DNA of 43,706 bases from a virus: positions 1 through 43,706 of IMG/VR virus record IMGVR_UViG_3300009774_000009; one strand, 5' to 3'. The position numbers were made by a program, and so were the translations under genes. Below are positions 11,265-21,034 of this stretch, piece by piece. Numbering within the stretch: position 1 is the first letter of the stretch; each line of letters opens with the position of its first letter. The notes below the pieces were generated by a model that did no database searches, was not told the origin of the DNA, and saw only the letters and a program-made list of their open reading frames with translations.

Positions 11265-11464
11265 GGTACATTTTTTATGCTAGATACTTCTGAATCATCA
11301 AGAACAGGGACGTGTAATATTGTCCCTCTGGGTAAAATGGCATCAACAGGCACTGAGGGGTTAGCCTCAATAAGTGTCTTTATGCCGGACATGGAGCCAT
11401 ATTGTTTCCAAGCTATTGAGCCCCAAGTTTCACCCTCTATCGTTGTATAGTTAAACATATTCAC
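11255..11464 (-). CDS. Tail protein X (LysM-like)
   Basis: 69 aa. P2 gpX family (PF05489), a small LysM-like protein: YTTIEGETWGSIAWKQYGS, IEANPSVPVDAILPRGTILHVPVL. Encoded between U and D and overlapping both, as expected. It probably caps the hub or contacts peptidoglycan-facing parts of the tail. Confidence 0.88.
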   Translation of the reverse strand: MNMFNYTTIEGETWGSIAWKQYGSMSGIKTLIEANPSVPVDAILPRGTILHVPVLDDSEVSSIKNVPWK

Positions 11465-12287
11465 CTCCTTCTCTACTGCCTATGAAAGCCACTACAGGTA
11501 CACTAGATACTGATAGTAAAGAGACGGCACTGCCTAATGTCACGTTTGCATTTAGCAAATCATTGAAGCTATTGATATCCGCAGCATTTCGAACGAATTG
11601 CGCAGCAACAGCAGCATTAGTCAGTGCCGTTCTTAATGAGGTGACTCTATAGATAAGTTTTTTTGTATTGTTGATCTGAGTGTTGGCAGCCTCAAACGAT
11701 TTTTTTGCTTCGCTGGCAAGGCTGGCAATCTTTTTATACATACCCATTGACGGCTCAGAGGTCACATGTGAGCTTATCTGGTTGCTACTCATAATACCTT
11801 TTGTGATATTATCATGTATGCTCTGAGCAGTGCTACTAAGTTGCACCGCTTTTATTTCTGATGGGGGTAGTTTGCTGGCAAGGGCCTCACCTGTATTTTT
11901 TGTTTTTGTAATGGAATTATATTCCAAAAGTGATATTGTTGCAGATATAGCTGTTGGCGTTCCGTTGGCAAGACATTGAGTGTTTGATACATCAATGTTT
12001 TTAATGACATATTTTCCATAATTACGACCTATTCCATCGATCAAAGGAAGCACCTCGGCATTTATCCGACTTAGGTTAAGGGCTGCAATCTCCTCAGTAG
12101 GGTTACAAAATTCAGAAGAGAGGAAAATACCAAAAGACTGCTCAATAAGATTTTCACCGACAGCCTGAACGGATGGTTTACCGTTGATAAGTGGTATCTG
12201 GCTATACTCAGTGGAATAAGATATATCCCAACTTTGAGGTAGCTTGATGCCTTGAAATTTATATGTTCCTAGTTGTAAAAACATCAA
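11451..12287 (-). CDS. Tail protein U
   Basis: 278 aa. The first 130 residues fit P2 gpU (PF06995): TYKFQGIKLPQSWDISYSTEYSQIPLINGKPSVQAVG. The C-terminal half is a helical extension absent from P2 gpU (about 160 aa). Tail assembly protein after the tape measure; the four-base overlap with tape measure (ATGA) suggests translational coupling. Confidence 0.82.
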   Translation of the reverse strand: MMFLQLGTYKFQGIKLPQSWDISYSTEYSQIPLINGKPSVQAVGENLIEQSFGIFLSSEFCNPTEEIAALNLSRINAEVLPLIDGIGRNYGKYVIKNIDVSNTQCLANGTPTAISATISLLEYNSITKTKNTGEALASKLPPSEIKAVQLSSTAQSIHDNITKGIMSSNQISSHVTSEPSMGMYKKIASLASEAKKSFEAANTQINNTKKLIYRVTSLRTALTNAAVAAQFVRNAADINSFNDLLNANVTLGSAVSLLSVSSVPVVAFIGSREGGEYV

Positions 12288-13855: not shown

Positions 13856-14035
13856 TTAGTCTTCTTTTAATTCAACCAGTAAAGCTCTGACAGGTGTCAG
13901 TATATCGTTTTGTCTTTGTTCATGTGCAGATGCCAGACAGTCCTCAAAAAACTCGGCATCCATATTCAGTATTTCCGTTAACCCCGTTGATGTGTAGTGA
14001 CTCAAAAAAACAAGATCATCAACGAGGATTACACG
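13856..14035 (-). CDS. E' extension made by -1 frameshift
   Basis: Open -1 frame of 59 codons (RVILVDDLVFLS... to LLVELKED) with no useful early start codon. It ends with TAA directly before the tape-measure ATG. It overlaps the end of the E-like gene exactly at a slippery A AAA AAC. Shifting there gives a 179-aa E-E' fusion (120 + 59). This matches P2 E/E' and lambda G/GT, where a minor frameshifted product acts as tape-measure chaperone. Reading frame and location are seen; frameshifting itself is inferred. Confidence 0.8.
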   Translation of the reverse strand, partial: RVILVDDLVFLSHYTSTGLTEILNMDAEFFEDCLASAHEQRQNDILTPVRALLVELKED

Positions 14036-14394
14036 TTTTTTACTTCACCAGGCTCACCACCAAAGATGGACATATCACCACCATTGATGAAGTGCATGAC
14101 CTCCATGATCTCCTCACCATCGAAGCAGTTGGCTAACTCTTCATAAACGATAGGCAGACCATTGATTCTAAGTGCTGAAACTGATCTTGCATACTCATCC
14201 TTAACGGCTTTCTCAGCGAGCTTACTGGTGTTCTTGTCGGTTGATGCAGATACGGAGGATTTAACCAGTGAGTCCATGACCAGACGGCCATTGGTGACAA
14301 CCATATCAAGCTTGATATCTTTATCAAAGCTGCAAACGTGGGTACGTTTTACCGTACCCTCATTTATCTTGCGTGTGAAATATTTGTTTTCCAT
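14029..14394 (-). CDS. Tail assembly chaperone (P2 gpE-like)
   Basis: 121 aa, in the position of P2 gene E between the tube protein and the tape measure. The last residues (GEPGEVKNV) contain the slippery site. It has an acidic C-terminal half (YEELANCFDGEEIMEVMHFING). As in other tailed phages it would bind the tape measure during tail assembly. The assignment comes from order, size and the frameshift site more than from sequence similarity. Confidence 0.78.
   Translation of the reverse strand: MENKYFTRKINEGTVKRTHVCSFDKDIKLDMVVTNGRLVMDSLVKSSVSASTDKNTSKLAEKAVKDEYARSVSALRINGLPIVYEELANCFDGEEIMEVMHFINGGDMSIFGGEPGEVKNV
14035..14041 (-). promoter_or_regulatory. -1 slippery heptamer A AAA AAC
   Basis: On the minus strand the zero frame reads GTA AAA AAC GTG TAA. 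A AAA AAC is a canonical X XXY YYZ heptamer in the correct phase, two codons before the stop. The -1 frame stays open for 59 codons. Confidence 0.85.
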
Positions 14395-14906
14395 TAGATA
14401 CCCAGATTAGAGCGATAATTTTGTAATAAATCTTCACCACCGACAACGAAAATGTTGTTTGGAATATCCAGTTCAAGAATTTCCTCACCATTTGATATGT
14501 ACTTGATGTACGTCAAATCAAACTTCGATTCCGTCTCTGTGTCTTCTTTGGGCTTGAAAGAGCCTAAAGACATATTCGCTGGAGCACCTTTAAGGTGAAA
14601 AACAACGGGCTCCTGTCCCGAAAGATTGCCGTCTACATATCTATCTCTTTGTGAATAGACCATTAAATCAACGGCCTGCATAGGGTTAAGACAAGCTTTT
14701 GCGACATCATTCTCAGGGGTGTTCCATTTAATGGAGCATTCCAGAGCTTCAAAGCCGTTGAAAAACTTAAGGACACCATTCAAGCCTAAAGCCTTATATT
14801 CACTTTTGGACGGTGAAATTTCTGGCAATGTTATCTCACTGGCCTGACCTAAAGTGGAGGTACCATTGACATACACATTTGCATCACGTAGTTTCATTAC
14901 TTTCAT
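14394..14906 (-). CDS. Major tail tube protein (FII)
   Basis: 170 aa. P2 FII tube family (PF04985): N-terminal LRDANVYVNGTSTLGQASEITLP, then KALGLNGVLKFFNGFEALECSIKW and QEPVVFHLKGAP. It polymerises into the inner tube below the sheath. Directly downstream of the sheath gene, as in P2. Confidence 0.93.
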   Translation of the reverse strand: MKVMKLRDANVYVNGTSTLGQASEITLPEISPSKSEYKALGLNGVLKFFNGFEALECSIKWNTPENDVAKACLNPMQAVDLMVYSQRDRYVDGNLSGQEPVVFHLKGAPANMSLGSFKPKEDTETESKFDLTYIKYISNGEEILELDIPNNIFVVGGEDLLQNYRSNLGI

Positions 14907-14910
14907 CGTC

Positions 14911-16098
14911 TTAAGCGTTTAAAAGGTTACTCAATAGAGTTGTATCAATCACAGAGTAGAAGGTGAACCGTTCACCAGGAGTGGCACCCATAAAGTTTTT
15001 GGTCCATACATAATGACCTTTGGCCATTTCTGTTGGAGTGTTCTTGGCGGCCTCAAAAAGACATTTACTACCTTGTATAAGCGCTCCCCTTGAAATAAGT
15101 GTATTAAAATAACCGTTCACCATTTCCGTGACAAGGTTAATCTGTGCAGGTGACATCGGTAGATCCAGATAAGGCAAACAAGCAAGCTCGATACTTTCAG
15201 AAGATATGTCATCAAGTCTCTGCATAGCTTCAAAAGTGCGGGAATCGGCATTAAGAGGGAAAGCACCGTTTCTGTTACCCCATTCACGGATACCAGCTCC
15301 ATATACGTTGACAAAAGTTGTAATACCTTGAGCATTCAATAGGTTGACTTCTGAATTGCTGTCATTGATTTCAAAACTTAATGGGGTTTCTATGCCAGCG
15401 GCACCTTTAAGAGTATGGTTTGAAGATGAATACCAGAAACCAAAGTTTTCGTCAACAAAAGAGCGTAATCCGGCAGAGCTGGCAGAGGCTGGTACAACCT
15501 TGTTGTCAAAGTCTATAAGACCTGAGAAAAGAAGCTTAGTACGATAGCTGGCCGTTGTCCAAAGACCTGCAACACCTCTAGCTGTCAAGGCGGCAGAGAA
15601 AAGCATAGCTGTAGGTGAGTCAAGATATGCACAACCTCTGTAGGTCAAAGCAGCAGCTTCAAGATCGGCAGCGATGGCAGCCGTTGAACTGAATCCAGGA
15701 GCAATAAATATTTTAGGGACAAAGCCATAAAGTGCACGGCAGGTCTCAAACAATTTTAGCCCGGTCTTTACACCTGTAGCGACATTCACTGCACCTGCAA
15801 AATCAGATTCTGTTGGTGTCGTAGCACCTGTACCTACACTGATGACAAAAACAACAGCTTTAGGGTTTTCCTTGCGAATAAGCCTTAAAGCGTTGGGTAT
15901 TGTATCAGTGGCAACCTTTGAATAAGCCCCGAAATGGGTCATATCATTGGCCTCAGATAATGAGAGATAGAGTTTGTTAGCCGTACCCGTCACAGAAGTA
16001 CCTATAAGTCCAATAACCGCACTTTTGACAGCGGTTACGGTACCTTCAGAACTAGCAACCTCGATGGTCTCAACCCCATGAAGAAATGTATCTGGCAT
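14911..16098 (-). CDS. Tail sheath protein (FI)
   Basis: 395 aa, the usual length for P2-type FI sheath. Signatures: FLHGVETIEVASSEGTVTAVKSAVIGLIGTS at the N-terminus, AYLDSPT, and near the C-terminus LDLPMSPAQINLVTEMVNGYFNTLISRGAL and WTKNFMGATPGERFTFYSV. Contractile sheath protein, which makes the phage a myovirus. Confidence 0.95.
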   Translation of the reverse strand: MPDTFLHGVETIEVASSEGTVTAVKSAVIGLIGTSVTGTANKLYLSLSEANDMTHFGAYSKVATDTIPNALRLIRKENPKAVVFVISVGTGATTPTESDFAGAVNVATGVKTGLKLFETCRALYGFVPKIFIAPGFSSTAAIAADLEAAALTYRGCAYLDSPTAMLFSAALTARGVAGLWTTASYRTKLLFSGLIDFDNKVVPASASSAGLRSFVDENFGFWYSSSNHTLKGAAGIETPLSFEINDSNSEVNLLNAQGITTFVNVYGAGIREWGNRNGAFPLNADSRTFEAMQRLDDISSESIELACLPYLDLPMSPAQINLVTEMVNGYFNTLISRGALIQGSKCLFEAAKNTPTEMAKGHYVWTKNFMGATPGERFTFYSVIDTTLLSNLLNA

Positions 16099-19591: not shown

Positions 19592-21034
19592 TTAAAGTAT
19601 ATTAGGGTCAGGTTCTAAAGGTTCAGGGGCGATCATGATACTTGAGAATGTAATGCCGGCATCGGCCAACAACTTACGCTCAGCAATTATCTCGTCTAAA
19701 AATTCCTGCGGATCACGGCCATCTTCACGAACTGATTCACTCCATGTTGTCAAGCCTGCTTGTAGTTGCAATACACGGGCATTTGTCTCTTTAACTGGAT
19801 CTAGCTGTTGCACTCTTGGTGCTGTCCAGTCTGTTGCGTTACAAACGACCTTAGTGGATGATAATCCGGTCATAATAACGGCATCCATAAACCACCGCCA
19901 AACATTGACACATACCTGCGGTACCATCATGTTGTACTGCCAGTTGCGGAAATTGGGTGTGATATCAATTTTTGCCATACGGCCACTGGTGAAATTGACA
20001 TTGGAATAGTCCATTGTCAACATCTCATAAGTGATGCCATAAGCGGCAGCAATGCCTTGTAAAATCTTTTTTGAATATTCAGCGTAACCATCAGCAGCTG
20101 GAGGTTTTGAAAATTCTATTGTTTCACCTTCACCAAGATCCTCAATTATTCCAGGTTCAAGGGATTCGAGATCTGATGAAGCCACTCCTTCACGTCCAGT
20201 CCTGAAAGCACAGAAAGCAGCGGCAGCTTTTTGTCTTACCAATTGTGCGTCTTCATAATCGGAAAAGTCAGACATCTTAATGAAAGAGGAAATACCCATA
20301 GGCACGCCACGCACTTGACTAATCCTAAGAAGTTCAAAAGGATGGATGATATCATTAACAGAAAAGTATTGAGATTGCAAAGAGCTCAATTTACCTGTCA
20401 TATCGGTAGGGTGTTGTGGCCATATCCAATAACCTATCGTAAGACCAGCCTCATCAAATTGCACACCAAGACTGGCAAACCCTTTATCATTAATACCATC
20501 CTTGCAATGATCCAACTGATCACCTTCAAGAACTTGAAGTTTTATTGGTAGAGGATTTTCACGGGTAGGGGTGACACGTCTTCTTACGATTAAGCAATCA
20601 CCTGCTTCGGCTATCTCAGACATCACAATACGTTGCAATCCGTAAAAGGTATTCTTACCGTTCCAATCGCAAGCAGTTGTCTCAGCCCAATCTTTCCAGA
20701 TCGCTTTTATTTTCTTTACCTGAGATTTTGTGCCTACGGGTGCCGGACGAATACCCTCACCGACAGTGTTGTTGGCAATGGCATTAATGGCACGTTTCGC
20801 CCATCCGTTATTTCTTACAAAATGACGTGAGCGATTGCGGAGTGTGATAAATCCTTGGGATATTTCGAGATTAGGACCGGCAGAGTTAGCTCCTTTAAAG
20901 GATTTTCCCCGTCTACCCATAGTGGCAGCTTCGTAAGACCTTCGTGCATTAAAGCGAGAAAGGGCAGCTTTCGGGGAAAAATAGGCTATTGACCTATCAA
21001 CAAGGTTTAATTTAGAAGCCTCTGCCATACTCAA
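19592..21034 (-). CDS. Portal protein, lambda family
   Basis: 480 aa. Phage_portal_2 (PF05136) pattern: RSRHFVRNNGWAKRAINAIANNTVGEGIRP, EIAEAGDCLIVRR, LQVLEGDQLDHCKDG and YGITYEMLTMDYSNVNFTSGRMA. The portal dodecamer forms the DNA entry vertex. Met at 21034 gives a 23-base overlap with gpW; Met at 21028 is also possible. Confidence 0.93.
   Translation of the reverse strand: MSMAEASKLNLVDRSIAYFSPKAALSRFNARRSYEAATMGRRGKSFKGANSAGPNLEISQGFITLRNRSRHFVRNNGWAKRAINAIANNTVGEGIRPAPVGTKSQVKKIKAIWKDWAETTACDWNGKNTFYGLQRIVMSEIAEAGDCLIVRRRVTPTRENPLPIKLQVLEGDQLDHCKDGINDKGFASLGVQFDEAGLTIGYWIWPQHPTDMTGKLSSLQSQYFSVNDIIHPFELLRISQVRGVPMGISSFIKMSDFSDYEDAQLVRQKAAAAFCAFRTGREGVASSDLESLEPGIIEDLGEGETIEFSKPPAADGYAEYSKKILQGIAAAYGITYEMLTMDYSNVNFTSGRMAKIDITPNFRNWQYNMMVPQVCVNVWRWFMDAVIMTGLSSTKVVCNATDWTAPRVQQLDPVKETNARVLQLQAGLTTWSESVREDGRDPQEFLDEIIAERKLLADAGITFSSIMIAPEPLEPDPNIL

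Follow-up and report, generated by a model that had tools for sequence, protein, structure and literature searches.

A proposed −1 frameshift at a conserved A AAA AAC heptamer in the E/E′ tail-chaperone genes of Bacteroidota-associated phages

The E/E′ locus and its neighbouring tail genes lie on the minus strand of a viral sequence of 43,706 nucleotides (IMG/VR record IMGVR_UViG_3300009774_000009), referred to here in its full length as the window. Matches to Pfam and PHROG families give the gene order sheath, tube FII, E, E′, tape measure and gpU, with the stop codon of FII overlapping the start codon of E in the sequence TAATG. The tail genes of phage P2 (NC_001895) are arranged in the same order (sheath, FII, E, E′, T and U), whereas the capsid side of the window differs from P2, with a lambda-family portal and a gpA-type terminase. 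The relatives described below lead us to infer a Bacteroidota host for the phage. The features of the locus are as follows.

14911–16098, minus strand: tail sheath protein FI (Pfam PF04984; PHROG 23, E 9.5e-69)
14394–14906, minus strand: tail tube protein FII, 170 aa (Pfam PF04985, E 1.4e-46)
14029–14394, minus strand: gene E, predicted N-terminal part of the tail assembly chaperone, an ORF of 121 aa giving the zero-frame product
14035–14041, minus strand: slippery heptamer A AAA AAC in phase with E (from the sequence and relatives)
14029–14031, minus strand: zero-frame TAA stop of E, 3 nt past the heptamer (from the sequence)
13982–14027, minus strand: putative stimulatory hairpin (from folding, family-wide shuffles and covariation in relatives)
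13856–14035, minus strand: E′ extension in the −1 frame, 59 aa and TAA (from conservation, dN/dS and homology to the E′ of phage WO)
12284–13855, minus strand: gpT-like tape measure protein, 523 aa (PHROG 28, tail length tape measure, E 1.9e-16)
11451–12287, minus strand: gpU-like tail protein downstream of the tape measure (Pfam PF06995, E 8.6e-21)

The 3′ end of E reads GAA GTA AAA AAC GTG TAA on the minus strand, with the heptamer at 14041–14035 and a single sense codon (GTG) between its AAC and the TAA stop of E. The −1 frame continues as CGT GTA ATC ... GAC TAA for 59 sense codons and its TAA (13858–13856) directly abuts the ATG of the tape measure gene (13855–13853). An earlier note on this DNA, which named no strand, had described an in-phase slippery heptamer close to the E stop, a −1 frame open for 59 codons up to the tape-measure ATG and a predicted E–E′ fusion of 179 aa, and each of these holds in the sequence, the fusion length being recomputed as 120 + 59 residues. 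Its statement that P2 uses T TTT TTG in gene E is likewise correct, since this heptamer is present in phase at 19678–19684 of NC_001895 (record coordinates). When the window was scanned for an in-phase XXXYYYZ no more than 36 nt from a stop codon and followed by a −1 extension of at least 40 codons, three gene ends were recovered (14041, 11276 and 6675). The same layout at three gene ends makes the heptamer pattern alone indecisive, and comparative evidence is needed. The site at 11276 is an in-phase A AAA AAT on the minus strand, 12 nt before the stop of a 69-aa ORF (11464–11255), the −1 frame of which runs on into a gpD-like gene (11264–10182, with a GTG start). E′ of the window also contains a T TTT TTG, which falls in the E′ frame; it is not conserved among the relatives and was dropped.

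A search of phage records with E gave no match, and the sole match obtained with E as the query was a second copy of the same virus (L003; IMGVR_UViG_3300010331_000033), in which E and FII are identical. The tape-measure frame of this copy is broken at QIGV, where the window reads through, which suggests an indel or assembly error in that copy. Relatives were therefore selected by the neighbouring tube protein FII, independently of the frameshift, and were found in viral contigs, two Prevotellaceae MAG contigs and further Bacteroidota genomes. The family set comprises 18 distinct FII-selected loci, including the window, each with a well-recognised E′; two loci (L033 and L040) with too little downstream DNA were excluded. 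A AAA AAC is present in phase in all 18. Among more distant FII loci, E′ is not recognised in L025, L026 and L048 and is matched only weakly in L047 (E 0.0016); in place of A AAA AAC, L047 and L048 carry T TTT TTG in phase, followed by a −1 extension. A held-out search with the E′ protein alone against 393 genomes of the same order yielded two new intact loci (L051 and L052, Bacteroidales prophages), both with A AAA AAC, a stop codon 3 nt later and the hairpin, together with a truncated copy (L053) that looks decayed and in which the A run ends in G rather than C. Of the 20 intact loci, 19 have the E stop 3 nt past the heptamer and one has it at 6 nt, and all keep a homologous open E′ frame. 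Thus, neither a closed −1 frame nor a missing slippery site, which the earlier note had named as observations that would count against its proposal, occurs in any of the 20. Some relatives contain extra ORFs between FII and E (L004:3518–3841 and also L010); the ORF inserted in L010, which starts METNIQILIPISEHNGKKAVSARLLHAFLE, presumably resembles phage antirepressors. In L036 and L037, strong inverted repeats (e.g. CCTCCCAACTCATATTTATATGAGTTGGGAGG) are located just past the E′ stop and might act as terminators ahead of the tape measure gene.

The E protein of the window is 17–50% identical to the proteins at the same position in its 17 relatives, and the Lys-Asn encoded by the heptamer are the only invariant residues in an otherwise divergent alignment. 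Pfam and PHROG scans of the window E returned no TAC family and no match of its own, and none of the 18 E proteins reaches the cut-off of Pfam Phage_TAC_7 (PF10109). The profile of the window E resembles E of L047 (hhalign probability 75%, E 2.5e-5), which in turn matches phrog_21320, a PHROG of unknown function (1.5e-11) that is also matched by three of the 18 E proteins (best 1e-6). Phrog_21320 is probably a tail assembly chaperone family, and through it and L047 these sequence comparisons would tie E indirectly to known tail chaperones. An AlphaFold model of E (pLDDT 57) was too poor for a structure search.

E′ also gave nothing useful in Pfam and PHROG scans. Its alignment is conserved (RVIxxxDVVFLxHFTGxG...), starting at the arginine directly past the heptamer. 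The E′ pair of L036 and L037 shows 0, 0 and 8 differences at codon positions 1, 2 and 3, respectively, and the next-closest pair (L044 and L046) has a dN of 0.075 and a dS of 0.48; judged from these substitutions, E′ is evolving as a protein under purifying selection. The AlphaFold model of E′ (pLDDT 84) is all-helical, and a Foldseek search of the viral and PDB libraries gave no significant match to it.

The predicted hairpin, a feature absent from the earlier note, consists in the window of an 11-bp stem, CCTCGTTGATG (14027–14017) paired with CATCAACGGGG (13992–13982), closed by a 24-nt loop. The stem begins 7 nt past the heptamer, and across the family the hairpin usually starts about 6–8 nt after it. 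In the window its energy is not exceptional compared with dinucleotide shuffles (z of −0.67) and is modest compared with synonymous recoding of E′ (z of −1.8). Across the 18 loci, the mean z under synonymous recoding is −2.98 and 17 loci lie below −1; a summed hairpin score would overstate the significance because of the relatedness of the loci. In a subgroup of 11 loci, 91% of cells pair, both partners have changed in four pairs, and pairing falls to at most 59% when the partner is shifted by up to three columns. For the middle and upper stem over all 18 loci, both the number of paired cells and the covariation score are above shuffles. Pair counts in the window's own subgroup of seven are barely above shuffles, so that the covariation rests on the other subgroup. 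RNAalifold found no consensus structure for all 18 loci, probably because the register of the lower stem differs between the subgroups, and subgroup pair counts were used in its place. On this evidence we regard the hairpin as likely to be real for the family and as probable in the window itself. An SD-like motif upstream of the heptamer, a candidate stimulator, is present in 13 of the 18 loci against 8.5 expected; the enrichment is slight, and in the window the motif is dictated by Gly-Gly codons.

The locus closely parallels E/E+E′ of P2, which is likewise situated between the tube gene FII and the tape measure gene T, with a −1 shift near the end of E and an E′ that reaches the tape-measure start. 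It differs in the heptamer, which is T TTT TTG in P2 and A AAA AAC in the window and all intact relatives, in the distance from heptamer to E stop (18 nt in P2 and 3 nt in the window) and in the downstream hairpin of the window's family, none having been reported for P2 and its Burkholderia relatives (PMC3091744). Neither E (compared by profile) nor E′ of the window has detectable sequence similarity to its P2 counterpart. Slippery sites vary among tail-chaperone genes (PMC5009743), and thus the lack of T TTT TTG does not exclude a P2-type mechanism. In the Wolbachia phage WO (MK976036), gene order and −1 frame are as in the window, whereas the heptamer is T TTT TTG, as in P2 (in phase, 1144–1150 of L055). 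E′ of the window is homologous to that of WO (hhalign probability 97.4%, E 1.3e-11), with tblastn alone giving a weak match (E 0.6). WO E belongs to Pfam Phage_TAC_7 (1.4e-21), and profile comparison detects no similarity between it and the window E. The two CDSs at L055:917–1284 of WO are annotated as separate hypothetical proteins and are most likely to be E and its −1 extension E′, joined at T TTT TTG. G/GT of lambda (Xu et al., 2004, cited in PMC5009743) also consists of a short chaperone and a −1 extension before the tape measure gene and shares the ratio-setting role proposed here; it belongs to a siphophage family with another heptamer, and the likeness is drawn from the literature and general knowledge. 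The g–t genes of the haloarchaeal virus HCTV-2 have A_AAA_AAC in a tail chaperone gene, as in the window (PMC5009743), and the likeness is one of heptamer and gene type, the host being archaeal.

Conservation, selection on E′, the P2-like gene order and the homology to WO E′ together support the earlier note's central claim of a programmed −1 frameshift, and we consider it very likely that E/E′ encodes a tail chaperone with E–E′ as a minority fusion product of ribosomal slippage. Most ribosomes would terminate at the TAA of E, yielding the 121-aa E chaperone. The remaining, minor fraction would pause at the hairpin while AAA occupies the P site and AAC the A site, whereupon the Lys and Asn tRNAs could slip back by one base and re-pair on AAA AAA. 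Reading in the −1 frame would resume at CGT (Arg) and add 59 residues, producing the 179-aa fusion as the minor form. If the locus works like P2 E/E+E′ and lambda G/GT, E would coat the tape measure protein and the E′ domain would recruit the tube protein. The efficiency of slippage would set the ratio of E to E–E′, and on the same analogy with lambda (PMC5009743) and P2 this ratio would control tail assembly.

The fusion could also arise if RNA polymerase, rather than the ribosome, slipped on the A run, so that transcripts gaining or losing an A encode it (programmed transcriptional realignment). The run reaches nine consecutive A in L009 and L024 and seven in some relatives, and transcriptional slippage is possible on runs that long (PMC3711429). 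However, only six A are present in the window and nine other loci, and conservation extends to A6C and an RNA hairpin rather than to the length of the run. A structure of this kind in the mRNA is in keeping with ribosome pausing and argues against transcriptional realignment, which we regard as quite improbable. Still less probable is that E′ is a separate small protein made by reinitiation or from an internal start past the E stop. The annotation of WO E′ as its own CDS and the GTG at E′ codons 8–9 in several relatives would be in keeping with such a start, but no E′ start codon is conserved: the first 22 codons lack ATG in 17 of the 18 loci, the sole candidate in the window is a TTG at codon 11, and no E′ start occurs within those 22 codons in L037 or L045. 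Moreover, E′ conservation begins upstream of any candidate start and the heptamer is invariant, which counts against a separately initiated E′.

That the split between E and E′ reflects chance, an error in sequencing or gene decay is suggested by little more than the three gene ends recovered in the window scan, and is hardly credible given that 20 distinct loci of different origin share the junction and that E′ is under selection. Conservation refutes this explanation and, as far as sequence comparison can show, settles what the heptamer alone cannot.

A_AAA_AAC, though the earlier note does not say so, is a low-efficiency heptamer in E. coli and is among the best for mammalian ribosomes (PMC4066793; PMC5009743). 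It is nevertheless very likely to be used by bacterial IS elements (PMC4066793) and is among the consensus prokaryotic heptamers found by GeneTack (PMC3711429). One possibility, which we put forward tentatively and consider rather doubtful, is that the ribosomes or tRNAs of Bacteroidota shift on AAC far more readily than those of E. coli, and that P2-like phages infecting this phylum have for this reason exchanged T TTT TTG for a strictly kept A AAA AAC and a hairpin dedicated to it. If true, the site would be a probe of a lineage-specific difference in decoding.

The locus extends the P2-type E/E′ system to phages associated with Bacteroidota, in which the heptamer is changed and a putative stimulator is added. 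The mechanism is known from P2, and the heptamer and hairpin differ from P2 within known frameshift biology. The analysis assigns a probable function to a family of E proteins that goes unrecognised in Pfam and PHROGs, and to an E′ exon that gene callers would miss or misannotate. It also provides a conserved frameshift cassette from a phylum in which the slippery-site rules of E. coli may not hold, and the pairing of a hairpin with a strictly used A AAA AAC, which is inefficient in E. coli, lends itself to direct testing.
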